47,710 nt of DNA, taken from positions 1-47,710 of the forward strand of contig CACHGH010000007.1 of NCBI GenBank assembly GCA_902579215.1, written 5' to 3'. The position numbers were made by a program, and so were the translations under genes. The stretch comes from an uncultured Pelagibacteraceae bacterium. Its GTDB lineage: Bacteria; Pseudomonadota; Alphaproteobacteria; Pelagibacterales; Pelagibacteraceae. Positions 2,460 through 29,914 of this stretch are shown here, piece after piece; the stretch's first letter is position 1, and every line of letters starts with the position of its first letter. The notes under the pieces were generated by a model that was not told the DNA's origin, did not search any database, and saw only the letters and a list, made by a program, of their open reading frames with translations.

Positions 2460-3243
2460 AATTTCTATCAACAAACGACTCTACAGCTTTATTAAAATCC
2501 TCAGAACATTCTATATTACAAAGATGTTTTCCATTTTTAATTTCATAATATGTTGAATTTCTAATTTTTTCAGATAATTTTTTTGACATTTCAGCTGTTG
2601 ATCCTACGTCATTCTGACCAGTAGTTACAAGTGTATTTATATTGATATTGCTCAACATTTGATCGTCATCTTCATAGTCAACAAACAGTTTATATGCTTT
2701 CAGTAAATTAGTATGGTCGTTTTCATCTAACATAGAATATATTTGGTCGTACATCTCTTTTTTTTCTTTAATATAATTTTCTGTAAACCATCTTCTAATA
2801 GCCCTATCTTTTGAAATTGGTCTGTTGGTCTTTAATAATTCAAATCTATTCTGTATAACTCTTTTCTGTTCTTCTGATCTTTTATATATTGAAGCATGTA
2901 TTATTAAAGAACTAAGCATATCCCCATGAGAAGCTGCAAAGTGTCTAGCTATAAGCGCTCCTAAAGAGAAACCTATTAAATGAACTTTTTTAATTTCTAA
3001 TTCTTTAAGTAAATTTAAAAGTTGTTTTGTAAAATCATCAAAATTTAATTGTTGTTTTTGTAAGGGTGTTTTTCCATGACCAAGTATATCATAGGTCAAA
3101 ATATTGTGTTTTTTAAAAAATTCAATTTGTGGCTTCCAAATCTCCTTCGTTAAACCAACACCATGGATAAATACAATTGGGCTTGAATTGTTTTCTTTTT
3201 TAAAGAAATAATCAGTTTTATATTTTTCAGATGTGCATGGCAT
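2446..3243 (-). CDS. Alpha/beta-hydrolase fold enzyme
   Basis: 265-aa single-domain alpha/beta hydrolase. HGVG at 27-30 is the oxyanion loop, GFSLG at 91-95 is the nucleophile elbow with Ser93, an Asp lies near 213 (GQNDVGS) and the catalytic His near 240 (NGKHLC). There is no signal peptide, so it is cytoplasmic. The ATG at 3243 has an AAGAGAG ribosome site. It overlaps the downstream ALDH by 14 bases and follows the AA_synth gene by 9 bases. Alongside a luciferase-like monooxygenase and an ALDH, it could hydrolyse an amide or enamide formed after ring cleavage (TgnE-like); this is inferred from context only. Confidence 0.85.
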   Translation of the reverse strand: MPCTSEKYKTDYFFKKENNSSPIVFIHGVGLTKEIWKPQIEFFKKHNILTYDILGHGKTPLQKQQLNFDDFTKQLLNLLKELEIKKVHLIGFSLGALIARHFAASHGDMLSSLIIHASIYKRSEEQKRVIQNRFELLKTNRPISKDRAIRRWFTENYIKEKKEMYDQIYSMLDENDHTNLLKAYKLFVDYEDDDQMLSNININTLVTTGQNDVGSTAEMSKKLSEKIRNSTYYEIKNGKHLCNIECSEDFNKAVESFVDRNYDEA

Positions 3244-3252
3244 AGATCTCTC

Positions 3253-3837
3253 TTAAGATTTAATACCCATCTCTTTCATATCTTGATATCTATCACCTGT
3301 TCTAGCATGAGCCCTTCCAGTTGTAGCTCCCCCTATAGCAATAACAATTTCATTTTCATTTGGGGCATCATGAATCGTAAATTCGTGCGTTAGATAATAA
3401 GGTCTTAGACCTGCATCAGTTTTATGCATCATTGGGATAGAAATTTTAGAACCAGCTGGACCTCTTGTGTTAGTAAAACTTAAGTAAGAAGTTCCACCTA
3501 CTGCTTCTCTAAATTTATTACCAAATCTTAAAGTGTGAATAAATGCAGAAGCGTGTTCTATCTCTCCATTTAAACCAACCATAGCAGCTTTACCGTAAGC
3601 AAGTATTTTATCACCAGACCCAATTTCTTTTATAAGTTCAGGAACTAGTATGTCACCAACTTTTGGAGCAAGTTCTAATATTTCTGGCTTTAAATCTTCA
3701 ACAAATTTTTTATCAGACCATGGATTATGAATTACAGCGGCTACAGAAACTAATAAAACAGGTTCTTTAGCTTTTTTTCCACCCTCTATAAAAGTTTTAT
3801 CAACAAATTTTACAAATTTTCTTAACTTTAAATCCAT
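3253..3837 (-). CDS. AA_synth (DUF1185) family protein
   Basis: 194-aa protein with the hallmarks of the PF06684 'amino acid synthesis' family: ILAYGKAAMVG, GEIEHASAFIHTLRFG, the conserved GG(T/V)SYL stretch near 115, HEFTIHDAP and a C-terminal AIGGATTGRAHARTGDR. The family's reaction is not established in my knowledge, despite the name; members often sit beside luciferase-like monooxygenases. Its ATG overlaps the stop of the monooxygenase gene by one base (TAATG), so the two are translated together. No membrane segment or signal peptide is seen. The context suggests a step just before or after ring oxidation of a nitrogen heterocycle. Confidence 0.8.
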   Translation of the reverse strand: MDLKLRKFVKFVDKTFIEGGKKAKEPVLLVSVAAVIHNPWSDKKFVEDLKPEILELAPKVGDILVPELIKEIGSGDKILAYGKAAMVGLNGEIEHASAFIHTLRFGNKFREAVGGTSYLSFTNTRGPAGSKISIPMMHKTDAGLRPYYLTHEFTIHDAPNENEIVIAIGGATTGRAHARTGDRYQDMKEMGIKS

Positions 3838-5003
3838 TAGCTAGCTTTTTGGATATTTGACTTATCAACATTTATTTTTGGAATTACTTCATCGTTAAAC
3901 AATTTAATACTTCTCATACAAGCCTCATGATCAATTCCAGGAAAGTTAGACCAAACTTGTAAATTTTGTAAATTTAATTCTGATTGAAGTTCTTTTATTT
4001 TGTTTACAACATAATCAGGAGTTCCAAAAAGTAAATTTCTTTTGTGTAAAAAATCGTAATTAAGAAGATCTAATTTATTTTTTGTTTCTGGCAATTCTTC
4101 ACCTGGGTCCATATGATTTCCTAATCCTCTCCAATGACATACCCATCTCATATAATTTATAATATGTTCACCCGCGAGTTTTTCAGCTTCCTCCATTGTT
4201 TCAGCAACAAACATATCTCTAACCAAACTAACTCCTTCACCCAATGGAACTTCTCTATTTTCAGCTTTAGATTTTGCTTCTTTATAAATTTCAAAACGTT
4301 TTTTTAGAGCTTTAACTGTAGGAATCCACATAATTGTATTAATTCCATTAGTAGCAGCCCATTGTATAGATCTTTCTCCATCAACAACTTGCCAAATAGG
4401 TGGGTGAGGTTTTTGATATGGCTTAGGAACAACACTAATTTTTTTTATTTCATTAGTTTTTAAATCTACAAATTTATCACTTGGAGGACTCATGTCATGC
4501 TGCCAAATAAAATTTGGCGTTGGATAAGTATAAAACTCTCCCTTATGCTCAAAAAAATCTTCAGTCCAAGATTTTTTTATTATTTTAAGAGTTTCTTCAA
4601 ATAATCTAAAATTTTTTCCTTGATCTTTAAGATCAGCTTCTTTGTTCATATTAATTGCTTCTCGACCATATATGCCTCGACCAATTCCAAAGTTTATTCG
4701 ACCTTTAGACATTTGATCAAGCATTGCTACGTCCTCAGCAATTCGGATTGGGTTATGAAATGTAATCACACTACATGCCTGGCCTATTCTTATATTTTTT
4801 GTTGTAGCCGCAGCATCTGCAGACATTAATAATGGATTAGGGCAACTTTCCATACCTTCATGGTTAAAGTGATGCTCAGTATACCAAATAGAATCCCAAT
4901 TATTTTCATCACAATATTTTGTTATTTCTCTAGCCTCTTCGAGTATCTGTGTATATGGCTTTTTATTCCAGTTCGTAGTATTGCAAAAATATCCCAATTT
5001 CAT
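3837..5003 (-). CDS. Luciferase-like (LLM class) flavin monooxygenase
   Basis: 388-aa bacterial-luciferase-fold oxygenase using reduced flavin and O2. It shows the N-terminal YFCNTTNW strand, WYTEHHF near 60, the RIGQACSVITFHNPIR strand near 90, a DQMSKGRINFGIGRG flavin/phosphate loop near 125, and VVPKPYQKPHPPIW near 210. An AAGGAGC ribosome site precedes the ATG at 5003. It heads a five-gene unit ending at 116. Such enzymes are two-component and need a flavin reductase, and none is encoded in the window. With ALDH and hydrolase partners it resembles TgnA-type ring-cleaving oxygenases of N-methylpyridinium betaines; the substrate is unproven. Confidence 0.85.
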   Translation of the reverse strand: MKLGYFCNTTNWNKKPYTQILEEAREITKYCDENNWDSIWYTEHHFNHEGMESCPNPLLMSADAAATTKNIRIGQACSVITFHNPIRIAEDVAMLDQMSKGRINFGIGRGIYGREAINMNKEADLKDQGKNFRLFEETLKIIKKSWTEDFFEHKGEFYTYPTPNFIWQHDMSPPSDKFVDLKTNEIKKISVVPKPYQKPHPPIWQVVDGERSIQWAATNGINTIMWIPTVKALKKRFEIYKEAKSKAENREVPLGEGVSLVRDMFVAETMEEAEKLAGEHIINYMRWVCHWRGLGNHMDPGEELPETKNKLDLLNYDFLHKRNLLFGTPDYVVNKIKELQSELNLQNLQVWSNFPGIDHEACMRSIKLFNDEVIPKINVDKSNIQKAS

Positions 5004-6091: not shown

Positions 6092-7201
6092 CTATTGTTT
6101 GGGAAAATAGTCTTGCAATTTTCCCTCTCTATAAACATCTGTTGTGCTGCAATGTAAACTTCCACCAAAGCCATAAGCTTCTCTAAAATCTACTGGCAAA
6201 ACTTCCATACCCAGTTTGTCAAGTTGTTCAGCTTGATAAACTTCACTTTTTTCTACACATACTGTTTTTGGATCTAAAACCAAAATATTCATTGATAACC
6301 ATATTGAATAGTAAGTTAGAGGTGGAGGGGAGTTGTGTGCTGGTTGCGCTGCTTCAATAATTTCCCAACCGTTATCCTCAAAAAGTTTTCTTTGTTCTTT
6401 AGGAAGTTTTCTTACAGGGTTATTTAATATTAAACCAGGTCTGATGGGAGTAAAAGTTGCATCTATATGAATAGGGTAAGGATCGCCTGGAAAATTTACA
6501 GTATGAATACGATGATCAGTAAAATGTCTTTTTAGCCAGTCAATACCTTTTAAATTTGTTGTAAAACCATGTTGAACAATTAAATCTTTGCCAAACCTTA
6601 ATATGTCTGCTGCATCGAAAAGAGGCTCTTCTTCAGTTGTTACAAAATATTTTTTTTCAGCCCATTCCAATCTTTGCTCAATGCTTACTTCATCAGACAA
6701 ATAATTTTTATGATAATCTTTATCTGTCAACCTAGGTTTAGGAGCTGACTCGTGCTTCATACCTGGATCTTCCATAAAGTATTTTTGTATCAATGGTCTA
6801 TAAGCTAAATATTCAAACCATCGACATCTAAAGCTCATAGTTGCTTCTAACATTTCTTTTCCAACAGTGATAATTACATCTCTTGATGGCATACAGCCAA
6901 ACATATGTTCAGCTTTCCAGTCGGGAGTTGCAATTTTTTCATCAAATTTTAAAGGAGTTGGTCTATCAACTCTAATTCCTCTACCTTCCAATGTTTTTAC
7001 AAATTTATCTAAAAGTTCGTTTGCTTTATCTATAGAATCTTGAGTTCTTCTTCCGTGTTTTCCTTTCATGACAGAGTCTGGAGGAATTTTTACATCTACA
7101 GCAGGTTCAGGCGCGGGTATACAACAATTATCTGCTCTACCAACAATAACATGTTTCAAGGGATCCCATTCATTCCAACTATTAACTATAGTTTTCTTCA
7201 T
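6092..7201 (-). CDS. Arginine:glycine amidinotransferase-like enzyme (copy 1)
   Basis: 369-aa amidinotransferase closely patterned on animal AGAT. It has FDAADILRFGKD (Asp199), PIHIDATF (His245) and a C-terminal FGGSLHCSTTDV in which Cys351 is the expected nucleophile. The family transfers the amidino group of arginine to an amine such as glycine, giving guanidinoacetate and ornithine. It is cytoplasmic. It starts 9 bases after the thioesterase gene and is followed by a 2OG oxygenase. A near-duplicate (copy 2) is encoded at 41675-42790 on the other strand; the two differ mainly on the surface and next to the catalytic Cys (HCST here, HCCT there), suggesting different acceptors. The acceptor amine is not certain. 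Confidence 0.88.
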   Translation of the reverse strand: MKKTIVNSWNEWDPLKHVIVGRADNCCIPAPEPAVDVKIPPDSVMKGKHGRRTQDSIDKANELLDKFVKTLEGRGIRVDRPTPLKFDEKIATPDWKAEHMFGCMPSRDVIITVGKEMLEATMSFRCRWFEYLAYRPLIQKYFMEDPGMKHESAPKPRLTDKDYHKNYLSDEVSIEQRLEWAEKKYFVTTEEEPLFDAADILRFGKDLIVQHGFTTNLKGIDWLKRHFTDHRIHTVNFPGDPYPIHIDATFTPIRPGLILNNPVRKLPKEQRKLFEDNGWEIIEAAQPAHNSPPPLTYYSIWLSMNILVLDPKTVCVEKSEVYQAEQLDKLGMEVLPVDFREAYGFGGSLHCSTTDVYREGKLQDYFPKQ

Positions 7202-7210
7202 ATGACTAAA

Positions 7211-7678
7211 CTATTTTTTGAGCTTTCCTGTTATTAAAAGATTATTTGTAACAAATTTTGTTTTATTTTGATTTATAAAATCATCCATTATTTTTAATTT
7301 TTCTTGTTCAAATTCAGTAACTTTTCTTTTGTTTAAATCTATATATAGAGCAAGCATTTCAATTGTTGCAGATAACATTTTTGTTTTTTTTTCATGCATT
7401 TCAAGTCTAAAATGTAATCTTTTTTTGTCATGATCAAAAAATGTTAAAACTATTTCGACCTCATCGCCTTGTTTTACCTCATTATTATACGTAGTATGAG
7501 TTTCGACTACCATTGTACTTTTTTTTGTAGTTTTAGCTGAGTGTTCGCCCATTTTAAATTTTTCGAGCATAACCTCCCAGCATTTATCAAAGATCAAAAC
7601 ATAATAAGCCATGTTTAGATGCTCATTATAATCCGTCCATTCTTTTTTGATTATTTGATTTGTAACATGCACTGTCAT
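7211..7678 (-). CDS. Hot-dog thioesterase, betainyl-CoA thioesterase-like
   Basis: 155-aa single hot-dog domain. The N-terminal EWTDYNEHLN (Asp16) is the 4HBT-type catalytic motif. VETHTTYNNEVKQGD, then DHDKKRLHF, then a late SATIEMLALYIDL strand match, from memory, the thioesterase domain that is free (CdhB) or fused to L-carnitine dehydrogenase in other proteobacteria. There it releases glycine betaine from betainyl-CoA. The BKACE gene at 9361 would make that CoA ester, which supports the call. It is the first gene of the 7678-5103 unit and is divergent from pseudoazurin. A generic acyl-CoA thioesterase is the alternative. Confidence 0.75.
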   Translation of the reverse strand: MTVHVTNQIIKKEWTDYNEHLNMAYYVLIFDKCWEVMLEKFKMGEHSAKTTKKSTMVVETHTTYNNEVKQGDEVEIVLTFFDHDKKRLHFRLEMHEKKTKMLSATIEMLALYIDLNKRKVTEFEQEKLKIMDDFINQNKTKFVTNNLLITGKLKK

Positions 7679-7693
7679 TTCATATTTTGTGTG

Positions 7694-7746
7694 TCAACTT
7701 GTAACACCTTGTTAAGTTGATTTAATCCTTTCCGTACCTATATACT
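7694..7746 (+). promoter_or_regulatory. Promoter and palindrome between thioesterase and pseudoazurin
   Basis: TTGATT (7717-7722), an 18-base spacer and TATACT (7741-7746) form a good sigma-70-type promoter for pseudoazurin. An imperfect dyad, TCAACTT (7694-7700) with AAGTTGA (7714-7720), overlaps the -35 box and contains an inner AACA/TGTT pair. It looks like a repressor or activator site able to act on both divergent genes. The regulator is unknown. Confidence 0.5.
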
Positions 7747-7776
7747 TATCATGAATTATACTAACAAGCACATAAT

Positions 7777-8211
7777 ATGAAACTGTTTAAAAAGTTAATA
7801 ATTTTATCAACATTTTTATTAGTTTCGTCCCACGGTTTTGCCGCAGATGTAACTGTCGAAATGCTAAATAAATTAGATAATGAAAGCATGGTTTATTCCA
7901 AGAAAATTGTAAAAATTAACACAGGCGATACAGTTTTTTGGAAAGCTACAGACAAAGGACACAATGTAGAATTTATAAAAAATGGTGTTCCAGAAGGTGT
8001 TGATAAGTTTAAAAGTAAGTTTAATAAAGACGCAGAATACAAGTTTACTGTACCAGGTATTTACGCCTATTGGTGCACACCCCACAAAACAATGGGAATG
8101 ATTGGTTTTGTTGTTGTAGGGGACGATAAGTCAAATATAGAAGCTATAAAAGCAATTAGGTTTTCTGGAAAATCTAAAAAAATTGCACCAGATTTAATTA
8201 ATCAACTTTAA
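7777..8211 (+). CDS. Pseudoazurin (type I blue copper protein)
   Basis: 144-aa periplasmic electron carrier. A signal peptide (about residues 1-22, ending HGFA) precedes a cupredoxin domain with type I copper ligands His62 (KGHNVEF), Cys100, His103 (YWCTPHKTMGM) and Met108; the C-x2-H-x4-M spacing is that of pseudoazurins. It shuttles electrons between membrane respiratory complexes and periplasmic reductases or oxidases. It has its own promoter and overlaps the convergent ProV-like gene by 4 bases. Linkage to osmolyte catabolism is unexplained; it may simply be a housekeeping copper carrier replacing cytochrome c. Confidence 0.9.
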   Translation: MKLFKKLIILSTFLLVSSHGFAADVTVEMLNKLDNESMVYSKKIVKINTGDTVFWKATDKGHNVEFIKNGVPEGVDKFKSKFNKDAEYKFTVPGIYAYWCTPHKTMGMIGFVVVGDDKSNIEAIKAIRFSGKSKKIAPDLINQL

Positions 8212-9233
8212 TTTTTTGTTAAAGATTTTTGTAGTTCGGCATTCGTAATATAGCCTTTAACATTTCCCTTTTTATCAACAACTTCGCAATTAGCATCTGT
8301 ACAAACTACTTGAGGTAAAAATTCATCAATAAATTGGTCTTCTTGAACTTTAATTAGGTTTTTTTTATCAATTCCATTTGCTTGATTTACAGGCTTCATA
8401 ATTACTTTTGCTTTAATTACTTTTGCTCTATTGACGTCTTTAACAAAAGCTTCAACATAATCATCCGCTGGATTCATTACAATATCAACTGGAGTTCCTA
8501 CTTGAACAAGTTTTCCAGCATTTAATATTCCAATATGATCTCCTAATCTTAATGATTCATCTAAATCATGGGTAATAAAAACTATTGTTTTTTTTAATTC
8601 AGATTGAAGATCTATCAATTGTTTTTGCATATCACTTCTTATTAATGGATCTAGTGCAGAAAATGCTTCATCCATTAACATGATGTCAGTATTTGTTGCT
8701 AGGGCTCTTGCCAAACCAACTCGCTGTTGCATTCCACCTGATAACTGATTTGGGTATTGATTTTCAAAACCACTTAGACCAACAGACTCTATTTTTTCCA
8801 TGGCAATTTTATTTTTTTCATCTTCAGATTTACCTTGCATTTCAAGTCCATAACTTACATTTTGAATTACAGTTTTGTGAGGAAATAATCCAAATCTCTG
8901 AAATACCATGCTCATTTTATGTCTTCTAAAATCAATAAGTTTTTCTGTATTTAGAGACATTACATTTGTACCTTCAACTAAAATTTCACCTGCTGTTGGA
9001 TCTATCAGTCTATTTAAATGTCTTATTAAAGTAGATTTACCTGATCCAGATAAACCCATACAAACAAAAGTTTCACCTTCTTCTATTTTAAGAGAGACAT
9101 TATCAAGACCAACCGTGTGTCCGGTTTTTTCTAAAATCTCTTCTTTTGTTGCACCATCTTTAACTTTTGGTAAAACAGATTTTGGATTGCTACCAAATAT
9201 TTTGTAGACATTATTTATTTCAATTTTACTCAT
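8208..9233 (-). CDS. proV: Glycine betaine/carnitine-type ABC transporter ATP-binding protein (ProV-like)
   Basis: 341-aa ATPase of the ProV/OpuAA/ChoV type. It has the long N-terminal extension (VYKIFGSNP... KTGHTVGLDNVS), Walker A GLSGSGKST, Q-loop MVFQRFGLFPH, signature LSGGMQQRVGLARAL, Walker B IMLMDEAFSALD, and a C-terminal CBS-like tail with a CTDANCEVVDKKG stretch. It would power uptake of quaternary amines, fitting its carnitine-pathway neighbours. I chose the ATG at 9233 (MSKIEINNVYKIFG); the longer reading from a TTG at 9287 runs through an inverted repeat and lacks family support. No ProW permease or ProX binding protein is nearby, so it is an orphan here. Confidence 0.85.
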   Translation of the reverse strand: MSKIEINNVYKIFGSNPKSVLPKVKDGATKEEILEKTGHTVGLDNVSLKIEEGETFVCMGLSGSGKSTLIRHLNRLIDPTAGEILVEGTNVMSLNTEKLIDFRRHKMSMVFQRFGLFPHKTVIQNVSYGLEMQGKSEDEKNKIAMEKIESVGLSGFENQYPNQLSGGMQQRVGLARALATNTDIMLMDEAFSALDPLIRSDMQKQLIDLQSELKKTIVFITHDLDESLRLGDHIGILNAGKLVQVGTPVDIVMNPADDYVEAFVKDVNRAKVIKAKVIMKPVNQANGIDKKNLIKVQEDQFIDEFLPQVVCTDANCEVVDKKGNVKGYITNAELQKSLTKN

Positions 9234-9265
9234 TTTTTTTATATTTCTAGCAGCTGTATCAGATA

Positions 9266-9288
9266 GTTGCAAAATTATTAGGTGCAAC
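9266..9288. promoter_or_regulatory. Inverted repeat in the proV/BKACE divergent region
   Basis: GTTGCA (9266-9271) and TGCAAC (9283-9288) form a perfect 6-bp inverted repeat separated by 11 bases, in the 127-base divergent region between the ProV-like and BKACE genes. The half-site spacing is of operator type. It is a candidate binding site for a carnitine/betaine regulator; no regulator gene is present in the window. Confidence 0.4.
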
Positions 9289-9360
9289 TGCTGATTGCAT
9301 ATTCACAAAACTCTTTAAGATGATAAACTTTATAAAAATTTTATATTAAATTTAAATAGA

Positions 9361-10248
9361 ATGGACAAAAAAGTATTTGTATCTTGTGCTGTTACTGGAT
9401 CTGGGGATACCGCAAAAAAACATCCTGATTTACCGATAACACCAAAACAAATTGCACAAGCCGCTATAGAGTCTGCAAAAGCAGGAGCTGCTATAGCACA
9501 TATTCATGTTAGGGAAGAAGATGGAAAACCAAGTAGAAGACTTGATTTATATAAAGAGGTTGTAGATAGAGTTCGTTCAAGTGAAACAGATGTTATTTTA
9601 AATCTTACAACAGGAATGGGTGGTGATTTAGATATAGGAAAAGGAAAAAATCCTCTCGAGTTTGGCCCAATGACTGATATGGCAAATATAATGGAAAGAA
9701 TTGCAAACGCAGAAGAATTTTTACCTGAAATTTGTACACTAGATTGTGGAACTCTAAATTTTGGAGATGATACACAAATTGTTGTTAATACACCCAAAGA
9801 TTTAAGAGCTGCTGCAAAAAGATTAAAAGAGATTAAAGTAAAACCAGAGATAGAGGCTTTTGATTTAGGAAATATGTGGTTTGGAGCACAGTTATATAAA
9901 GAAGGTTTGTTAAGCGATCCTCCAATGTTTCAAATGTGCCTAGGGATTCCATGGGGAGCGCCAGCCACTACTTTATCGATGCAAGCGATGAAAGATATTA
10001 TGCCAAAAGAAGCTATCTGGTCTGGTTTCGCAATTTCAAAAAACGAAATGCCTTTTGTTGCTAAAACAGTAGAAATGGGTGGTAATCCTAGAGTTGGCCT
10101 TGAGGACAATTTATACTTATCAAAAGGAAAATTAGCAACAAATGCACAACTGGTTGAAAAAGCAATTGGAATTGTTAACGATCTTGGGTTTACAACATTA
10201 ACTCCAGAAGAAACAAGAAAAAAACTTAAACTTATTAGGCAAAAATAG
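9361..10248 (+). CDS. BKACE family enzyme, probable 3-dehydrocarnitine cleavage enzyme
   Basis: 295-aa beta-keto acid cleavage enzyme (formerly DUF849). Zinc ligands are His47 and His49 (AHIHVRE), and Glu248 is in RVGLEDNLY; TTGMGGD and LDCGTLNFGD are family motifs. BKACEs exchange a beta-keto acid with acetyl-CoA to give acetoacetate and a new acyl-CoA; the carnitine member (CdhC) makes betainyl-CoA. A betainyl-CoA-thioesterase-like gene at 7678, a gamma-butyrobetaine hydroxylase immediately downstream and a ProV-type ATPase upstream all support dehydrocarnitine as substrate, but BKACE specificity varies widely and this is inferred. Confidence 0.82.
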   Translation: MDKKVFVSCAVTGSGDTAKKHPDLPITPKQIAQAAIESAKAGAAIAHIHVREEDGKPSRRLDLYKEVVDRVRSSETDVILNLTTGMGGDLDIGKGKNPLEFGPMTDMANIMERIANAEEFLPEICTLDCGTLNFGDDTQIVVNTPKDLRAAAKRLKEIKVKPEIEAFDLGNMWFGAQLYKEGLLSDPPMFQMCLGIPWGAPATTLSMQAMKDIMPKEAIWSGFAISKNEMPFVAKTVEMGGNPRVGLEDNLYLSKGKLATNAQLVEKAIGIVNDLGFTTLTPEETRKKLKLIRQK

Positions 10249-10320
10249 TGTCAAAGTTAAATAAACTAAAATAAGGTAGAGTGATAATAAATAATAAAAT
10301 ATAATTATTCTAATATTGTT

Positions 10321-11454
10321 ATGAAAAATAATTGCAATATAAAAAATATAAAAAAAAACCATTCTTTCCTTGAAGTGGAGTGGAGTGATGGTGAAAAAAG
10401 CAAATTTAATTACATGTGGTTAAGAGATAATTGTCCTACCGCACATGACAAAGACTCAAGACATAGAATGTTTAATATTTTAAAAGTCTCTCAAGATATA
10501 AATCCAAAAAAATATGCTTTAAACGAAGAAGGTAAATTAGAAATTGAATGGAATGAGGGAAATCATACTAGTTATTACGATCAAGAATGGCTAAGAAAAA
10601 ATTGCTACACTATAAAAAACAAAAAAAAATATGTTTCTCCCTATCAATTATGGGATAGTTCACTGTCAAAAGATTTAAAATCAATAAGTATAGAGCATGA
10701 TGAGATTATAAATTCTGATAATGGATTAATCAAATGGTTAGAACTGCTACATCATAAAGGAATAGCAATAGTTAAAAATTCTCCAGTAAAAGAAAAATCT
10801 GCTTTTCCAGTTCTAAATAGAATAAGCCATACAAGAGAAACTTTTTTTAAAACACCTTTTGAGGTTATAAATGTTCCAAAACCGAATAATTCTGCTTACA
10901 CAGCGCATGAATTAAGAAATCATATGGATTTACCATGGTTTGAAAATCCTCCAGGGTATCAATTTCTTCATTGTTTAATAAATAATGCTGAAGGCGGAGA
11001 CTCTTCAGCTGTTGATGGATTTGCAGTTGCTGACTATTTAAGAAAAAATGAAAAAGAAACCTTTGATACTTTGGTCAATACACATCTTAAGTTTAGAGAT
11101 AAAGATTATACACAGGTTGCTCATAGAAGTTTTTATGCCCCAGCAATAAGCTTAACTAAAGATGGTGATTACAACGATATTAGATTTAGCGTAGCCACAA
11201 TGGACGCTTTAGATTGTGATCCAGATAAAATGGATAAAGTTTATAAAGCTCATCATAGATTTGGAAACCTGTTGCATGACGATAAATTTCAAATTAAATT
11301 TAGATTAGAATCAGGAGATATATTTTCATTTAACAATCGAAGACTTTTGCACGGAAGAACTGCTTTTAATCCAAATTCAGGAAATAGGCATTTACAAGGT
11401 TATTATATGGATCGAGATGAAATTATTGGTAGATTAAATTTTTTACAGCAATAA
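10321..11454 (+). CDS. Gamma-butyrobetaine dioxygenase-like Fe(II)/2OG oxygenase
   Basis: 377-aa TauD/TfdA-family oxygenase with the GBBH N-terminal domain (DUF971-like, residues 15-110: EWSDGEKSKFNY, MWLRDNCPTAHD) and the catalytic core. Iron ligands are His201/Asp203 (NHMDLPWFENPPGYQFLHC) and His344 (RRLLHGRTAF), with Arg356 for 2-oxoglutarate. Family members hydroxylate gamma-butyrobetaine to L-carnitine. The N-terminal zinc site of the animal enzyme seems incomplete (one Cys in LRDNC). It is separated by 72 bases from the BKACE gene, which acts two steps later in carnitine catabolism. Trimethyllysine-type substrates are less likely. Confidence 0.85.
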   Translation: MKNNCNIKNIKKNHSFLEVEWSDGEKSKFNYMWLRDNCPTAHDKDSRHRMFNILKVSQDINPKKYALNEEGKLEIEWNEGNHTSYYDQEWLRKNCYTIKNKKKYVSPYQLWDSSLSKDLKSISIEHDEIINSDNGLIKWLELLHHKGIAIVKNSPVKEKSAFPVLNRISHTRETFFKTPFEVINVPKPNNSAYTAHELRNHMDLPWFENPPGYQFLHCLINNAEGGDSSAVDGFAVADYLRKNEKETFDTLVNTHLKFRDKDYTQVAHRSFYAPAISLTKDGDYNDIRFSVATMDALDCDPDKMDKVYKAHHRFGNLLHDDKFQIKFRLESGDIFSFNNRRLLHGRTAFNPNSGNRHLQGYYMDRDEIIGRLNFLQQ

Positions 11455-11455
11455 T

Positions 11456-12886
11456 TTATTTCCAACCAGTTATTGTTTTAACTTCCAGATACTCTTCTAG
11501 ACCCCAAACTCCCCCTTCACGGCCATTTCCAGATTGTCTATATCCACCAAAAGGTGTACCAGGATCGGCGCCATTCCCATTAATATAAACAATTCCCGAC
11601 CTTAATTTTTTTGCAACTCTTTTAGCTTTTTCCGCATCTTCTGTTTGTAAGTAATTTCCAAGACCATATTCCGTATCGTTTGTAATTTTAATTGCTTCTT
11701 CTTCTGTTTCAAATGGGATTATTGAAAGAACAGGACCAAAAATTTCTTTCTTTGCTATATCCATATCATTTGTTACATCAGAAAATATAGTTGGCTTAAT
11801 AAAATAGCCTTTTTTTAAATTGTTTGGAAGTTCAGGCCCACCAGCAGCTAATGTTGCCCCTTCAGCAATTCCACTTTTAATTAAATTAATAATTTTATCA
11901 TACTGAACTTTAGAAACTACTGGACCAATATGATCTCCTTTTTTTGATGCTACATCTACTTGAATTTTATCTGCTTCATCTGCAGCTTCTTTAACTGCCC
12001 TTTTATAAATAGATTTTTCAACAAGCATTCTTGTTGGAGCATCACATGACTGACCAGAATTGCTCATAACATTTCTTATTCCGTCTCTCACAGCATTAGG
12101 ATATGAGTCTGCAAAAACTATATTTCCACCTTTTCCTCCTAGCTCTAAACAAACTCTTTTAATTGTGTTAGCAGCATTTTTTGTAATTAATTTTCCTGCT
12201 CTTGTTGAACCAGTAAATGAAATCATATCAATATCTGAGTGTCCTGATATTTCTGTTCCCGCTCCAGCTCCATCTCCATTAACTAAATTAAAAACTCCTG
12301 CGGGATAACCTGATTCATCTATCATTTCAGCAAATAACATTGCAGAAAGAGGCGATATTTCTGAAGGCTTAAGTATCATTGTGCACCCGGTTGCTAAAGC
12401 CGGAATAACTTTTAATGCTATTTGATTTATTGGCCAGTTCCACGGCGTAATTAAACCACATACCCCAATTGGTTCATGAGCGATATGATTATTAGATTTA
12501 GAATCAAAGTTTTCTTCAAATTTGAAATTTTTTAACCTTAATATAAAATCTTCTAAATGTGATTGCCCAGATGAAGCATGAACTGCAGTTGCATAATCTA
12601 TAGGAGCGCCCATTTCTTTGGACATTACTTCTGCCATTTCATTAAATCTTTTTTTATAAATTTTAAGTAACTTTTCTAAAAAAATAATTCTTTCTTCTTT
12701 TTTAACATTTTTCCAGTTCTCAAAAGAATCTCTGGCAGCTTTTACAGCAATATTCACATCTTCTTTTCCACCTAAAGAAATTATGGCAAAAACTTCTTCA
12801 GTAGAAGGATTTATGACTTCAAAATCATTTTTCCTAAACGGTAAGATCCATTTACCATTGATGTAAAATTTTTTTTTATCTAACAT
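11456..12886 (-). CDS. Aldehyde dehydrogenase family protein
   Basis: 476-aa ALDH with Asn150 (TPWNWP), FTGSTRAG near 224, general base Glu248 (CLELGGKGG) and nucleophile Cys281 (SGQSCDAPTRM); FGGYRQSGNGREGG lies near the C-terminus. It follows the beta-hydroxyacid dehydrogenase gene by 25 bases on the same strand and is convergent with the butyrobetaine hydroxylase gene (one base apart). In this neighbourhood 4-trimethylaminobutyraldehyde or betaine aldehyde is a reasonable substrate, giving gamma-butyrobetaine or glycine betaine. It is not a methylmalonate-semialdehyde (CoA-acylating) type by its active-site region. Specificity is not certain. Confidence 0.87.
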   Translation of the reverse strand: MLDKKKFYINGKWILPFRKNDFEVINPSTEEVFAIISLGGKEDVNIAVKAARDSFENWKNVKKEERIIFLEKLLKIYKKRFNEMAEVMSKEMGAPIDYATAVHASSGQSHLEDFILRLKNFKFEENFDSKSNNHIAHEPIGVCGLITPWNWPINQIALKVIPALATGCTMILKPSEISPLSAMLFAEMIDESGYPAGVFNLVNGDGAGAGTEISGHSDIDMISFTGSTRAGKLITKNAANTIKRVCLELGGKGGNIVFADSYPNAVRDGIRNVMSNSGQSCDAPTRMLVEKSIYKRAVKEAADEADKIQVDVASKKGDHIGPVVSKVQYDKIINLIKSGIAEGATLAAGGPELPNNLKKGYFIKPTIFSDVTNDMDIAKKEIFGPVLSIIPFETEEEAIKITNDTEYGLGNYLQTEDAEKAKRVAKKLRSGIVYINGNGADPGTPFGGYRQSGNGREGGVWGLEEYLEVKTITGWK

Positions 12887-12910
12887 TTTTTAATACAATT
12901 ACCACAAAAT

Positions 12911-13852
12911 TTATATTTCATATCCTTTTTCTTCAGGCTCATTATCTACTAGTTCTTCTGGAAAATTAGGAGCTCTAAAGTTAATATTAAATTTGTCTTC
13001 TAGTCTTTTTACCACCATAGATGACCAGGCTCTCGAACCATATTTTTTATTTGCATTCTTAAAAATATCTAAAACAAAAGGTGATATTTCTAATGGTATA
13101 TTCAGTTTTTTTGATAAATCATTAAATAGAGTCATATCTTTTTCAACTAAATCCATTGTAAAATTAATATTGTAAGATCCATTTAGTATTACTTGACTTT
13201 CTGTTTCATGAACAAATGAATTGCCAGAAGATACTTTAATACCTTTAAATGTTTTAGTTAAATCTAAATTTGATTTTTTTGCAACTGACCAAGCTTCACC
13301 CAATGCAGCAAGGTGAACAGAAGCTAAATAATTTGTTATTACCTTAAGAACTGAAGCTGTTCCGAGTGCTCCAGTATGTAAGATTTTTCGACCCATTGAA
13401 GATAAAACTGGCAAAATCTTTTCAAATGCATTCCTTTCTCCTCCAACAAAAATAGCAATATTTCCAGTGGCTGCTCTATGGCAACCTCCACTTACAGGAC
13501 CATCAAGTGGTATTGCTTTTTTTTCAGATATAATTTTTCCCAATCTTTTCACCTCAGACTCATCTGTTGTGCTCATCTCAAGCCAAATTTTATTTTTTGA
13601 AAGACCTTCAATTACGCCATTTTTACCCTCCATAACTTCTGAACAAATTTTTGGTGAAGGCAAACAAGTTATAATTAAATCTACATTTTTGGCCAATTCT
13701 TTTGGAGAAAAAATAATTTTTGCTCCTTTTTTTTCAAAATCATGTAATAAGTTTTTATTCAGGTCATTTACTGCCACATCGAATTGATTTCTTAATAAAC
13801 TTCCTGCTAATTTTCCACCCACGTTTCCAAGACCTATAAACCCAATTTTCAT
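12911..13852 (-). CDS. 3-hydroxyisobutyrate dehydrogenase-family NAD(P) oxidoreductase
   Basis: 313-aa beta-hydroxyacid dehydrogenase. It has an N-terminal Rossmann motif GFIGLGNVGG (5-13), substrate loop DGPVSGGCHRAATG (117-130) and catalytic Lys170 in VLKVITNYL. Family members oxidise or reduce beta-hydroxy acids (3-hydroxyisobutyrate, tartronate semialdehyde, others). It is first in a two-gene unit with an ALDH and divergent from the EutA-like gene. No classical (3HCDH-type) L-carnitine dehydrogenase is seen in the window; this enzyme could take that place, since carnitine is itself a beta-hydroxy acid, but that is speculation. Confidence 0.83.
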   Translation of the reverse strand: MKIGFIGLGNVGGKLAGSLLRNQFDVAVNDLNKNLLHDFEKKGAKIIFSPKELAKNVDLIITCLPSPKICSEVMEGKNGVIEGLSKNKIWLEMSTTDESEVKRLGKIISEKKAIPLDGPVSGGCHRAATGNIAIFVGGERNAFEKILPVLSSMGRKILHTGALGTASVLKVITNYLASVHLAALGEAWSVAKKSNLDLTKTFKGIKVSSGNSFVHETESQVILNGSYNINFTMDLVEKDMTLFNDLSKKLNIPLEISPFVLDIFKNANKKYGSRAWSSMVVKRLEDKFNINFRAPNFPEELVDNEPEEKGYEI

Positions 13853-13912: not shown

Positions 13913-14659
13913 ATGTATTCAACAAAAGTAGAACCAAAATACAATCCTAACCCCAATCCAAGAATAGGGTTAATTGCTCTAGCTAGCGATTTTATGATTG
14001 AAAAAGACTTTATTAATGTAATTAAAGACAAAGATATAGATTTTTTTGTTAACAGAATAGAATGTTACAATCCACTCACTCGTGAAAATTTAATAAAAAT
14101 GTCTGAAAAGGTAACTGAAGTTACAAAAGATATTTTACCTGATGAAAAAATTGATTGTGTAGTTTATGGTTGTACTTCTGGAACTATAGCTGCAGGTTAT
14201 AATTCTATTGAAAATAAAATTAAAATAGCAAAACCAGAAGCTAAAGTTACAACCCCAAGTACAGCAGCAATAAAAGCATTAAAAAAACTAAACATAAAAA
14301 AACTTTCTATTTTCACACCATATAGTAAAAAATTAAATGATGAAGTCGTTGCTTATTTTAAAAAAGAGAATTTTCAAATAGTTTCAAACTCTTATTTTGA
14401 TATCGATTCAGATATTGATATTGGAAAAGTCGACCAAAATTATTTGTATGAAGTGCTATCAAAAATAGATTTAAAAGGTGCTGATGCTTTATTTGTTTCA
14501 TGTACCGCACTTCCAGTACTATCAATAATTGATAAGTTAGAGAAAAAAATAAATAAATTTGTTTTATCTAGCAATCAAGCGCTAATTTGGGACACATTAG
14601 AAAGCATAGGAAAAAATAATTCGGTCAAAGGTTTTGGAAGATTATTTTCATCTAATTAA
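13913..14659 (+). CDS. EutA-like Asp/Glu racemase-fold protein
   Basis: 248-aa protein of the maleate isomerase/arylmalonate decarboxylase/aspartate racemase superfamily. The two catalytic cysteines are in symmetric positions: Cys87 (VYGCTSGT) and Cys197 (VSCTALPVL). PRIGLIAL begins the fold at residue 16. EutA proteins of this family accompany ectoine utilisation genes, and the next gene, two bases downstream, is an ectoine-hydrolase-like M24 protein, so EutA-like is the best call. Its reaction would be an isomerisation or racemisation of an intermediate. It is followed by a Pot-type ABC transporter on the same strand. Confidence 0.75.
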   Translation: MYSTKVEPKYNPNPNPRIGLIALASDFMIEKDFINVIKDKDIDFFVNRIECYNPLTRENLIKMSEKVTEVTKDILPDEKIDCVVYGCTSGTIAAGYNSIENKIKIAKPEAKVTTPSTAAIKALKKLNIKKLSIFTPYSKKLNDEVVAYFKKENFQIVSNSYFDIDSDIDIGKVDQNYLYEVLSKIDLKGADALFVSCTALPVLSIIDKLEKKINKFVLSSNQALIWDTLESIGKNNSVKGFGRLFSSN

Positions 14660-14661
14660 TT

Positions 14662-15828
14662 ATGTTATTTACAAAAACAGAATACAAAGAAAGATTAAAG
14701 AAAGTTCAAAAATCAATGCAAGAAAAAGGCATTGAGCTATTAATTTCGCAAGACACTAATAATATGAATTATTTAACGGGTTATGACGCCTGGTCATTTT
14801 ATTATGCACAATGCGTAATAGTTCATGTTAATGCAGAGGAACCTTTATGCTTCGTAAGAGCTCAAGATGCAGGCGGCGCATATATAACAACTTACTTAAA
14901 AAGAGAAAATATAATTGTTTATGAAGAAAAATATATCCATACCTGGCCAATGCATCCTTATGATCCATTAATTGAATTAATAAAAAAAAATAAGTGGGAA
15001 AAATTAAATATTGGCGTTGAAATGGATAGCCATTATTTTACAGCATATTGTTATGAAAAATTAAAGAATGGCTTACCAAATGCAAAAATAAAAGACTCAG
15101 AGAGATTAGTTAATTGGGCAAGACTTGTTAAATCTAATACAGAAATAGATTTAATGAAAGGTGCAGCAATAATTTCTCAACAAGCAATGAAAGTGGCGAT
15201 GGAAACTATTAATCCGGGCGTTAGACAATGCGATGCTGTCGCTGAAATTCAAAGAGCACTTTTTAGAGGTACTCCAGAAATTGGAGGTGAATACGCTAGT
15301 ATAGCGACACTTTTGCCTACAGGAAAAGGAACTTCAGCTTCACATTTAACAGCTACAGACAAAAAATTTGTTAACGGTGAAGCAACAATAATTGAATTGT
15401 CAGGAGTAAATAAAAGATATCATTCACCAATGGCAAGGACAGTTCAACTTGGAAAACCAGAACAAAAAAAAATTGATGCAATGAAAGCAACAAATGAAGC
15501 ACTTGATGCCGGCATTTCTGCTACAAAACCTGGAAATACTGCAGATGATGTTGCTCAAAAATTTTGGGGAGTTTTAGATAAATACAATATAAAAAAAGAA
15601 TCGAGAACCGGTTACTCAATTGGAATAGGATACCCACCTGACTGGGGCGAACATACCCTTAATATTTATAAAGGAGATATGACAGTTCTTAAACCGAATG
15701 TATGTTTTCATATGATTGCTGTAATGCAATTTGGAGAATGGGGAGTAGAAGCTTCGGAGTCTGTTAGAGTTACAGAAAATGGAAGCGAATTATTCTGCAA
15801 TTATTCAAGAGATTTACACATAAAATAA
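14662..15828 (+). CDS. M24-family hydrolase resembling ectoine hydrolase DoeA
   Basis: 388-aa pita-bread-fold hydrolase with a creatinase N-terminal domain (NNMNYLTGYDAWSFYY at 33-48) and an M24 C-terminal domain. The first metal ligands of aminopeptidases are replaced: the usual Asp-x-G-x-x-x-x-G-Y-x-x-D is IIELSGVNKRYHSPMART (243-260), as in DoeA/EutD and creatinase, which work without metal. The YPPDWGEHTLNIYKGD and NVCFHMIAVMQFGEWGVE segments are typical of DoeA as I recall it. It would open the ectoine ring to N-acetyl-diaminobutyrate. No DoeB deacetylase follows, so a related cyclic or amidine substrate is possible. It lies 41 bases before an ABC transporter. Confidence 0.8.
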   Translation: MLFTKTEYKERLKKVQKSMQEKGIELLISQDTNNMNYLTGYDAWSFYYAQCVIVHVNAEEPLCFVRAQDAGGAYITTYLKRENIIVYEEKYIHTWPMHPYDPLIELIKKNKWEKLNIGVEMDSHYFTAYCYEKLKNGLPNAKIKDSERLVNWARLVKSNTEIDLMKGAAIISQQAMKVAMETINPGVRQCDAVAEIQRALFRGTPEIGGEYASIATLLPTGKGTSASHLTATDKKFVNGEATIIELSGVNKRYHSPMARTVQLGKPEQKKIDAMKATNEALDAGISATKPGNTADDVAQKFWGVLDKYNIKKESRTGYSIGIGYPPDWGEHTLNIYKGDMTVLKPNVCFHMIAVMQFGEWGVEASESVRVTENGSELFCNYSRDLHIK

Positions 15829-15868
15829 AAAAACTTGAAATAATTGTCTACAAATGTTTTAAATCCGC

Positions 15869-16957
15869 ATGTCAAAGAACCAGCAATTTGTTAGATTTGA
15901 TAAAGTAGATAAAAGCTACGATGGAAAAGTTTTAGTAGTTAAAGACTTAAATTTAGATATTGCTGAAGGTGAATTTGTTACAATGCTAGGACCTTCTGGA
16001 TCTGGCAAAACAACTTGTCTTATGATGTTAGCAGGTTTTGAAACTCCAACAAATGGTGAAATTTATTTAGATAAAAATCCAATTTCAAATATTCCTCCAC
16101 ACAAGAGAGGAATAGGAATGGTTTTTCAAAACTATGCATTGTTTCCACACATGACTGTATATGAAAATTTAGCTTTTCCTTTAAGAGTTAGAAAAACATC
16201 AAAAGAAGATATAGATAAAAAAGTTGATAAAGCTTTATCGATGGTTTCATTATCTGGGTTTGAAAATAGAATGCCTGGACAATTATCTGGTGGACAACAA
16301 CAAAGAGTAGCTGTTGCAAGAGCTTTAGTCTTTGATCCACAAGTAGTGTTGATGGACGAGCCACTAGGTGCGTTAGATAAAAATTTAAGAGAAAGTATGC
16401 AGTATGAAATTAAACATATTCATGAAAGCATAGGTGTTACAGTTGTTTATGTTACTCATGATCAAGGTGAAGCACTCACAATGTCAAATCGTATTGCTGT
16501 ATTTAATGATGGAAAGGTACAACAATTATCGAGTCCTGATAAACTGTATGAAGAACCAGTAAATTCATTTGTTGCAGAATTTATAGGTGAAAATAATACA
16601 TTTTCAGGAGAGGTGTCAGATATTTCAAATGGAAAATGTAAAGTTAAATTGGACTCAGGAACAGAAATTATGGCAAATCCAATTAGAGTAAAATCTAAAG
16701 GAGAAAAAACCATAGTATCACTACGACCAGAGAGAGCAATTATAGATCCTCAAAAAGGTATGGACAATAACCACAAAGGAAAGATAGAAGAAGTAATTTA
16801 CCATGGTGATCACACTAGAGTTAGATTAGACTTGTTGGGTAACAAAGAATTTATACTTAAAGTTCCAAATAGTTCAGCAAGAATGGATATAAAAGTTGGC
16901 AACCAAATAAACGTTGGTTGGAACAGCCAAGACTCTAGAGCTCTAGACCCAAAATAA
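15869..16957 (+). CDS. potA: Pot-type ABC transporter ATP-binding protein
   Basis: 362-aa MalK/PotA-like ATPase: Walker A GPSGSGKTT near 45, Q-loop MVFQNYALFPH, signature LSGGQQQRVAVARAL, Walker B VVLMDEPLGALD, switch His in VTHDQGEALT, then a C-terminal TOBE domain (about 240-360, with SLRPERAI). It energises the importer encoded by the next three genes. The gene starts 41 bases after the DoeA-like gene and is probably cotranscribed with it. The substrate class of this ATPase group includes polyamines and other small cationic or zwitterionic compounds; the name potA denotes family, not proven substrate. Confidence 0.88.
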   Translation: MSKNQQFVRFDKVDKSYDGKVLVVKDLNLDIAEGEFVTMLGPSGSGKTTCLMMLAGFETPTNGEIYLDKNPISNIPPHKRGIGMVFQNYALFPHMTVYENLAFPLRVRKTSKEDIDKKVDKALSMVSLSGFENRMPGQLSGGQQQRVAVARALVFDPQVVLMDEPLGALDKNLRESMQYEIKHIHESIGVTVVYVTHDQGEALTMSNRIAVFNDGKVQQLSSPDKLYEEPVNSFVAEFIGENNTFSGEVSDISNGKCKVKLDSGTEIMANPIRVKSKGEKTIVSLRPERAIIDPQKGMDNNHKGKIEEVIYHGDHTRVRLDLLGNKEFILKVPNSSARMDIKVGNQINVGWNSQDSRALDPK

Positions 16958-17021
16958 ACTCAATCAACAAAATACATACTATTTAAAGGGTAATTTAACC
17001 TTATTTGCTGGAAAACAGTAG

Positions 17022-17050
17022 TTGACTCCATTTTTTAGACTTGTTGTAAT
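17022..17050 (+). promoter_or_regulatory. Predicted sigma-70 promoter of the binding-protein gene
   Basis: TTGACT (17022-17027), 17-base spacer and TGTAAT (17045-17050) sit 37 bases before the ATG of the solute-binding protein gene, within the 129-base gap after the ATPase gene. A strong GAAGGAG ribosome site follows just before the ATG. An own promoter fits the usual over-production of binding proteins relative to the membrane components. Confidence 0.55.
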
Positions 17051-17086
17051 TGCTTTTTTAAAAAAACGTTTAAACGAAGGAGAAAA

Positions 17087-18202
17087 ATGAAAAAAATTAG
17101 TAAATTATTACTAGCCGTTTCTTTTGTACTTTCTATAACTTCATCTGCATTTGCAGTTACTATTGCATCTTGGGGTGGAGCTTATACTGAGTCTCAGAAA
17201 TTAGGTTACGGTGATCCTACTGCTAAAAAACTTGGTATAGAAATTAACTGGGTTGATTACTCAGGTGGATTATCAGAAATTAAAGCACAAAAAGAAGCTG
17301 GTGCTATTGTATGGGATATAATAGACGTATTTGCATTCGATACAATTAATGGATGTGACGAAGGTATCTTTGTTGAGTTTGACTTTGATAAAGACTTTGA
17401 GGCTGCTCCAGATGGAACACCTGCAAGTGAAGACTTCTTTACTTCAATGCCAAGCAAATGTGCTGTAGGAAATATTTTATATTCTTGGAATTATGCTTAC
17501 AACAGCGACAATGTTAAAGGCACTCCAAAAACTATAAAAGATTTCTTTAACACTAAAAAATTCCCTGGAAAAAGAGCGATCTATAAGTCTGCTTTAACAA
17601 ACTTAGAGATAGCTTTAGCAGCTACTGGAACAAAACCAGGAAAAGGTGGAGCAAATATCTACAAAAAATTGAATACTGAAGCAGGTGTTCAAAAAGCACT
17701 AGATACAATTAAAAAACTTTGTACAGATCCTAAAGGAGGATGTGTATTTTGGTCTGCAGGTGCTCAACCACCAGAACTATTAATGAGTGGTGAAGTTGTA
17801 ATGGCAACTGGTTGGAATGGAAGATTCTTTAACGCTACAGTTGGAGAAGGCGCACCAATCGTTCAAGTTTGGGATGCACAAGGTCTTGACTATGAATATT
17901 TTGCATTAGTTAAAGGTGGACCTGACCACGAGAACGCAAAAAAAGCACTAAGAATGATGACTAACACTGAAATGTTAGCAGGAAGTGCTAAGTATATTGC
18001 ATACGCTCCATGGAGAAAATCTTCAATTAAAGTTATGGAAGCAGGTGAACCTTGGTATAAAGATGGTAAAACAAACATGGTACCACATATGCCAACTGCA
18101 CCAGCAAACACAAAGAACTACTTCTTAGTTGATCCATTCTTTTGGGCTGATAACGGCACAGAACTTGGTGAAAAATGGGAAGCTATGAAAGCTGGTCTGT
18201 AA
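17087..18202 (+). CDS. potD: Periplasmic substrate-binding protein of a Pot-type ABC importer
   Basis: 371-aa extracellular solute-binding protein (PotD/SBP_bac family). A cleavable signal peptide (1-23, SSAFA) is followed by VTIASWGGAYTESQ, the start typical of polyamine-type binding proteins, and SAGAQPPELLMSGEVVMATGWNGR near 222-245. Cysteines near 78, 105, 206 and 214 could form periplasmic disulfides. It has its own promoter and strong ribosome site, and a stem-loop follows the stop codon before the permease genes. The ligand may be a polyamine or, from the upstream DoeA/EutA-like genes, an ectoine-like or amino-acid-derived solute. Confidence 0.87.
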   Translation: MKKISKLLLAVSFVLSITSSAFAVTIASWGGAYTESQKLGYGDPTAKKLGIEINWVDYSGGLSEIKAQKEAGAIVWDIIDVFAFDTINGCDEGIFVEFDFDKDFEAAPDGTPASEDFFTSMPSKCAVGNILYSWNYAYNSDNVKGTPKTIKDFFNTKKFPGKRAIYKSALTNLEIALAATGTKPGKGGANIYKKLNTEAGVQKALDTIKKLCTDPKGGCVFWSAGAQPPELLMSGEVVMATGWNGRFFNATVGEGAPIVQVWDAQGLDYEYFALVKGGPDHENAKKALRMMTNTEMLAGSAKYIAYAPWRKSSIKVMEAGEPWYKDGKTNMVPHMPTAPANTKNYFLVDPFFWADNGTELGEKWEAMKAGL

Positions 18203-20423: not shown

Positions 20424-20588
20424 TCTACGGGAGAGACTACTTTAATGTAGCGCCGAAGGAGCAACCACCCCGGAAACTCTCAGGCAAAAGGACCGTGCAT
20501 ATTAACTCTGGAAAGAGAATAAGTTCTCGCCGAAGGAGCAAATCTCTCAGGCACCAAAGACAGAGGGGGCAATGAAAGAGTTAATATG
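20424..20588 (+). promoter_or_regulatory. Tandem glycine riboswitch (gcvT leader)
   Basis: Two glycine aptamers in series. The first, about 20424-20497, has P1 ACGG/CCGT and the conserved GCCGAAGGAGCAA and ACTCTCAGGCAAAAGGACC. The second, about 20506-20566, repeats CGCCGAAGGAGCAA and TCTCTCAGGCACCAAAGACAG, with P1 CTCTG (20506-20510) and CAGAG (20561-20565). The eight-base linker between them plus the start of P1 of aptamer 2 (20498-20509) is perfectly complementary to 20577-20588, which includes the gcvT ATG. Glycine binding would favour P1 and free the start codon, so this should be a translational ON switch. Confidence 0.95.
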
Positions 20589-21698: not shown

Positions 21699-22065
21699 AT
21701 TTTCAAAGGAACATGAATGGATTACTGTTGATGGAGAAATAGCAACAATAGGCATAACAAAACATGCAACAGAAATGCTAGGAGATATTGTTTTTGCAGA
21801 ACTTCCTGAAAAAGGATCAAGTGTTGAAAAAGATGGAACTGCAGGAGTAGTAGAGTCTACTAAAGCAGCAAGCGATGTCTATACACCTATAAGCGGAGAA
21901 GTCGTTGATACTAACCAATCCATTGTAGATGACCCATCAAAAATTAACACTGACCCTGAAGGTTCTGCATGGTTTTTTAAACTAAAAATAAAAGATAAAT
22001 CAGAAATGGATTCATTGATGAATAGAACTGAATATGAAAAATTTGCCAAAGAAAGTGCTAGCTAA
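21685..22065 (+). CDS. gcvH: Glycine cleavage system H protein
   Basis: 126-aa lipoyl carrier that shuttles the aminomethyl group between P, T and L proteins. The lipoylated lysine is Lys60 in [17 protein letters not shown] at the start and [17 protein letters not shown] near the end are family signatures. The gene overlaps the end of gcvT and its last base overlaps the first base of gcvP (TAATG), so all three are translationally coupled. The L protein (lipoamide dehydrogenase) is not in the window and presumably is shared with other complexes. Confidence 0.96.
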
Positions 22066-29912: not shown

Positions 29913-29914
29913 TC

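Follow-up and report, generated by a model that had tools for sequence, protein, structure and literature searches.

In the Cdh route from carnitine to glycine betaine, cdhA encodes the dehydrogenase, cdhC a beta-keto acid cleavage enzyme (BKACE) and cdhB the thioesterase. A fused protein of S. meliloti is reported to oxidize carnitine and also to convert betainyl-CoA to glycine betaine (cited in PMC12482172), and in R. pomeroyi CdhABC levels rise when carnitine or other N-osmolytes are supplied (PMC12478193). In SAR11 bacteria, an island with much of the gene set considered here was described in half of 16 Arctic genomes, with none in 18 closed genomes, and interpreted as an adaptation to the Arctic (PMC12421898, mBio 2025); the words "dehydrocarnitine" and "betainyl" are absent from the main text of that paper. 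Genes for carnitine metabolism have further been reported to characterize offshore SAR11 genera (PMC12636525, ISME J 2025). Here we analyzed a 47,710-nucleotide stretch (the window; contig CACHGH010000007.1) of an 83% complete SAR11 draft genome (G000 in our genome sample), in which a first-pass annotation had proposed a pathway from carnitine through betainyl-CoA to glycine betaine at positions 7211–13852. We read this interval as the carnitine/betaine island of SAR11 in compact form, with a predicted flow from carnitine to glycine betaine, at a probability of roughly 0.65.

In the proposed pathway, a betaine-type ABC transporter energized by the window's ProV would import carnitine or gamma-butyrobetaine, and a gamma-butyrobetaine dioxygenase (BBOX)-like oxygenase would hydroxylate gamma-butyrobetaine to carnitine, which is the weakest step. 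An L-carnitine dehydrogenase (CDH) encoded elsewhere, perhaps just past the point where contig 1 of this genome ends, would oxidize carnitine to 3-dehydrocarnitine. BKACE would then convert 3-dehydrocarnitine and acetyl-CoA to betainyl-CoA and acetoacetate, and a 4HBT thioesterase would turn betainyl-CoA into glycine betaine. Every substrate in this scheme is an inference of ours, as are the involvement of the transporter, the hydroxylation by BBOX and the location of the CDH.

The window's BKACE (9361–10248, plus strand; PF05853, 304.5 bits) is a predicted 3-dehydrocarnitine:acetyl-CoA cleavage enzyme of the CdhC type. When 79 BKACE proteins of the class were placed in one tree (midpoint-rooted for drawing only), it fell in a clade of 41 rows with support of 98/99. 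We labeled a BKACE gene as CDH-adjacent when a CDH-family gene scoring at least 180 stood on the same strand within 400 bases. All 25 CDH-adjacent rows belong to this clade and none of the 38 rows outside it is CDH-adjacent, 33 of them lacking a CDH anywhere in the stretch read and five having a CDH-family neighbor that scores below 180. A profile of SAR11 BKACE proteins gave scores of 297–603 for the scored clade rows except L238 (a clade member with 90 bits and a very long branch) and of 58–183 outside the clade. We further compared the residues of 40 rows, comprising 26 CDH-adjacent ones (the window's included) and 14 other high-scoring ones, with those of 39 low-scoring rows. Position 128 of the window's protein is Asp in all 40, and 24 of the 39 low-scoring rows carry Asn there; the 40 rows share Phe223 (40/40), Cys193 (39/40), Pro197 (38/40) and Met86 (36/40). 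Clade and low-scoring rows differ at several columns, most cleanly at 128 and 223; the columns of what we take to be the metal ligands and catalytic residues of Kce are conserved in the alignment. Tree and residue pattern both group the window's protein with CDH-linked BKACEs, and its active-site residues did not cluster with another substrate class, the outcome that the first-pass annotation had named as contrary to its proposal. These comparisons support the assignment of the window's BKACE to the CDH-linked type, and the carnitine reading of the gene holds.

The coupling of BKACE and CDH across the order is almost one to one. Among the 197 genomes searched (BKACE at E ≤ 1e-60; CDH by NF005716 at E ≤ 1e-40), 90 have BKACE and 85 have CDH: both occur in 84, BKACE only in six, CDH only in one (G113) and neither in 106. 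The genomes counted are related, and Fisher values for this co-occurrence are not taken as probabilities. Because BKACE is present in 90 of these genomes and both genes in 84, the carnitine pathway looks widespread in the order. The six BKACE-only genomes are the window's own, G009, G045, G191, G203 and G223; CDH stands beside BKACE in two frames in G203, and BKACE runs into a contig end in G045. In the window's genus, the two genes are adjacent in 39 of the 46 genomes having both, about 5–7 kb apart in four, and further apart or on different contigs in three. CDH was next to BKACE in nine of the 14 other genomes of the genus that were first read; two of the remaining five carry CDH elsewhere, and none was found in three. 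Of 564 named loci that carry a related BKACE, the best 80 are all assigned to Pelagibacter, Pelagibacteraceae or Pelagibacterales, which identifies the window as SAR11; in 59 of them CDH follows immediately, in the same orientation. The CDH beside BKACE in G110 has the L-carnitine dehydrogenase model NF005471 as its best match (352 bits; cut-off, 414). It is followed by a thiolase gene in two pieces (L061:10631–11755; 241 and 110 amino acids), the N-terminal piece recognized by Pfam and the second named from its sequence. We attribute the split to a frameshift or sequencing error, and a thiolase after CDH would suit the acetoacetate product.

The thioesterase (7211–7678, minus strand; PF13279, 77.5 bits) is a 4HBT_2 protein and a predicted betainyl-CoA thioesterase of the CdhB type. 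Its one NCBIfam match at E ≤ 1e-5 is carnitine 3-dehydrogenase NF005716 (58 bits; profile positions 346–477 of 495). It matches 17 of the 19 long CDH rows tested at 23–33% identity (not L187 and L192), as well as stand-alone thioesterases encoded next to BKACE and CDH in L185 (32%) and L190 (55%). The protein resembles the C-terminal part of NF005716 and the thioesterase part of fused CDHs, which bears out its earlier description as CDH-linked. Sequence comparison establishes to which families BKACE and the thioesterase belong and that BKACE and CDH are coupled across genomes. With this placement and co-occurrence, the route from carnitine to glycine betaine proposed in the first-pass annotation stands in part; the annotation had overlooked the CDH that the route requires, which is absent from the window.

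The missing CDH may lie in an assembly gap. No match to the CDH genes of relatives was found in the window. A CDH hidden elsewhere in the assembled contigs of its genome was considered and rejected: the CDH query matched only a FadJ-like protein on contig 16, and NF005716 matched only this protein and the window's thioesterase. In five relatives (G017, G139, G197, G025 and G073), CDH is distant from BKACE, on another contig or at least about 19 kb away, and follows an NMNAT-like gene and a gene for a 283-amino-acid oxygenase, directly in four and two genes later in G073. The window's genome has the same two genes as the last ones on contig 1 (length 110362), where the oxygenase gene is cut by the contig end (88% identity over query residues 2–251 of 283). 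The run of genes before the pair is the same on contig 1 as in G025, where BKACE likewise stands without an adjacent CDH. In these relatives a 155-amino-acid gene comes next, and a search of the window's genome did not find it. Since contig 1 ends at the site where five relatives have CDH, the CDH of the window's genome may be located in the gap beyond it.

Several observations weigh against the carnitine reading. Searches of the window's 83% complete genome with the CDH query and NF005716 found no CDH, and none was detected in the BKACE-bearing genomes G009 (92% complete), G191 (91%) and G223 (89%). The cut-off of NF005716 is not attained in any genome of the order, and the single CDH scanned, that of G110, lies below the NF005471 cut-off. 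The five sites with a distant CDH were fetched because CDH stands there; relatives of the 283-amino-acid oxygenase beside ProV in 15 loci have no CDH behind them, and in G067 and G156, where CDH is 5–7 kb from BKACE, it is not at the NMNAT/oxygenase site. The "dehydrocarnitine" label of the BKACE clade rests on CDH neighborhood, not on assayed sequences. The highest-scoring CDH-family neighbor outside the clade (L199, 178.9) is just below the cut of 180, and the exclusive CDH-adjacency of the clade depends a little on this cut. Fifteen rows of the clade have no CDH by the adjacency rule; two of them are from SAR11, and L164 and L218 at least have a CDH somewhat further off. The parts of the literature on BKACE groups available to us give substrate classes, and we found no residue signature for dehydrocarnitine in them. 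In P. aeruginosa, the betainyl-CoA step is assigned to DhcAB, not to a thioesterase (PMC12482172).

The 15 clade rows without an adjacent CDH, together with the description of the BKACE family as promiscuous (PMC4922564), would suit a beta-keto acid other than 3-dehydrocarnitine as the substrate. We regard this as quite unlikely, as every CDH-adjacent row falls in the clade and the coupling with CDH in the order is near one to one. The absence of a detected CDH in G000 and in G009 could also mean that the window's genome truly lacks this enzyme and that the 3-hydroxyisobutyrate-dehydrogenase-family protein (HIBADH; 12911–13852, minus strand), encoded near BBOX, oxidizes carnitine instead. HIBADH-family enzymes oxidize beta-hydroxy acids, and the best NCBIfam match of this one is L-threonate dehydrogenase (183.7 bits, below the cut-off of 350). 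However, CDH-bearing genomes such as G022 and G110 also carry the HIBADH gene, CDH is present in all but six of the BKACE genomes, and contig 1 breaks off at a site where five relatives have CDH. We therefore rejected HIBADH as a replacement for CDH and consider it very unlikely.

The BBOX-like oxygenase (10321–11454, plus strand; PF06155 and PF02668; TIGR02409, 333.1 bits) is confirmed in its family, but its action on gamma-butyrobetaine, as first proposed, is open to doubt. Its score is below the curated cut-off of 414.75, a Ser replaces Asn292, and the gene occurs without BKACE and CDH. The iron ligands His, Asp and His are kept, and the four cage positions are aromatic (Phe, Phe, Tyr and Tyr), with the numbering of human BBOX and the roles of these residues as we presume them. 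Asn292 of human BBOX is, we assume, a contact to the carboxylate of the substrate; Ser at this position is also found in the two nearer score groups, throughout the 70 rows of the genus (among them truncated copies and the gene of the window itself) and in all 10 rows of the middle group. BBOX is present in 102 of the 197 genomes and in 88 of the 90 BKACE-positive ones. No BKACE was found in 14 of the 102, and in 13 of these 14 no CDH was found either. Six of the 14 were read (G137, G220, G126, G070, G071 and G093). The first four keep the thioesterase, ProV, BBOX, HIBADH and an aldehyde dehydrogenase (ALDH; 11456–12886, minus strand, in the window), and have a gene for a 243-amino-acid class II aldolase-family protein directly before BBOX (88–98% alike; L243:8581–9312, L244:8483, L245:8269 and L248:8718). 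G071 and G093 have ProV and BBOX and no class II aldolase gene in the stretch read. Because the thioesterase and BBOX are kept without BKACE, neither need be tied to dehydrocarnitine, and these genomes are the strongest argument against such a tie.

This distribution, with the low BBOX score and the loss of Asn292, gives some weight to a division in which BKACE and CDH serve carnitine, and BBOX with ALDH, HIBADH and the thioesterase forms a module of its own that acts on a different quaternary ammonium acid, the two sets being neighbors without a shared function. We consider this division possible but doubtful, given the near-constant presence of BBOX in BKACE-positive genomes, its retained iron ligands and aromatic cage, and its position directly after BKACE on the same strand in the window. 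A more speculative extension, which we hold to be unlikely, is that the thioesterase, ProV, BBOX, ALDH and HIBADH constitute a SAR11 quaternary-ammonium-acid module of their own, with an exchangeable product-breaking cassette before BBOX that is either BKACE (with CDH), in the lineage of the window, or the 243-amino-acid aldolase-family enzyme, in lineages lacking both BKACE and CDH. If so, the aldolase version would be a second, CoA-free route, for example by decarboxylation or retro-aldol cleavage of carnitine or its keto acid. To our knowledge, no CoA-free aldolase-type carnitine route has been described, although the literature was not searched for one. That a class II aldolase takes the place of BKACE before BBOX in some lineages is the loose end of greatest interest in this analysis.

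The four genes named in the first-pass annotation, for the thioesterase, ProV, BKACE and the BBOX-like oxygenase, are open frames at the coordinates given here, with strong matches to Pfam and NCBIfam profiles. Its list lacked three further genes within 7211–13852, those for ALDH, HIBADH and a pseudoazurin-like copper protein (7777–8211, plus strand; TIGR02375, 114.4 bits, above the cut-off of 109.85). ALDH (best NCBIfam match BADH, 421 bits, below the cut-off of 668.6; nearest solved structure in the PDB, 3i44) and HIBADH (nearest structure, 5je8) often neighbor BBOX in the relatives' neighborhoods read, and the pseudoazurin gene is a neighbor in some relatives. The genes use both strands, as described at first, and do not form the usual cdhCAB operon. 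A single operon was rejected for this reason; only BKACE and BBOX are collinear, on the same strand with 72 bases between them.

The ProV-type betaine/proline/choline ABC ATPase (8208–9233, minus strand; TIGR01186, 366 bits, above the cut-off of 326.6) likelier starts at the ATG at 9233 than at the listed TTG at 9287. The window contains no betaine-type permease or binding protein for it. Contig 1 of the window's genome encodes ProW and a binding protein that are possible partners of the lone ProV; their relatives in G067 (73% and 61%) are encoded near BBOX and ProV. Contig 1 also encodes homocysteine-methyltransferase-family, dimethylglycine dehydrogenase-like and GbcA-like Rieske proteins, all below cut-offs; the first two are candidates for betaine demethylation, on another contig than the window. 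The GbcA-like Rieske gene stands beside one for a DddP-like protein of the dimethylsulfoniopropionate lyase family, both below cut-offs (L161:8419–10831). The first-pass annotation had also linked the pathway onward to a DAO-family oxidase (29861–31018; Pfam, 167.8 bits) and putative gcvTHP genes (open frames at 20586–24929). This link is weak, and both were rejected as parts of the unit because of their distance of 7–17 kb, with gcvTHP about 7 kb and the oxidase about 16 kb beyond the interval.

Other genes flank the interval. Two amidinotransferase-like proteins of the arginine:glycine type, 77% identical to each other, are encoded at 6092–7201 (minus strand) and 41675–42790 (plus strand); the nearest solved structures of the former are L-arginine:glycine amidinotransferases (1jdx). 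At 13913–18202 (plus strand), EutA-like and DoeA-like (ectoine hydrolase) genes, below cut-offs, are followed by an ABC ATPase and a binding-protein gene, in the same order as in G137, G220 and G126. At 978–5003 (minus strand), genes for an aldehyde dehydrogenase, an alpha/beta hydrolase, an AA_synth-family protein and a luciferase-like protein form a group conserved in G110, G137, G220 and G126, with one gene interposed in G137.

The carnitine-to-betaine route would provide this SAR11 bacterium with glycine betaine, methyl groups and glycine from an additional source. Compared with known systems, the window probably carries most of a real pathway of known kind. Among the closest is the Arctic SAR11 island, from the same group of organisms, which by name shares HADH, ALDH, BBOX, an ABC ATPase, BKACE and a thioesterase with the window (PMC12421898). 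In contrast to that larger island, the window has no match to the relatives' genes for CDH, a betaine-type permease, a binding protein, choline dehydrogenase, GDPD, a class II aldolase or a TauD-type oxygenase, which were assigned to the Arctic island by name. Carnitine metabolism is also shared with offshore SAR11 genera, whose genes for it may or may not correspond to the window's set (PMC12636525). The P. aeruginosa caiX-cdhCAB-hocS genes likewise lead from carnitine to glycine betaine but form one operon, whereas the window uses both strands, lacks cdhA and adds a BBOX-like gene (PMC5806209). Alphaproteobacterial loci with a long CDH (NF005716) share with the window BKACE, beside CDH in many, and a homologous thioesterase part, which is fused to CDH there and is a gene of its own here. 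The oxygenase has its family, iron ligands and aromatic cage positions in common with human gamma-butyrobetaine dioxygenase (3ms5) and TmpA (6npb), and differs from the human enzyme by Ser for Asn292; it scores slightly higher against TmpA than against human BBOX as single sequences (179 vs 172 bits) and higher against BBOX than against TmpA as profiles (333 vs 279 bits). Beyond these described systems, our analysis adds the extent of the pathway across the order, the evidence for BKACE and the thioesterase, the finding that cdhA and cdhC stand apart in some genomes, and the replacement of BKACE by an aldolase-family gene.

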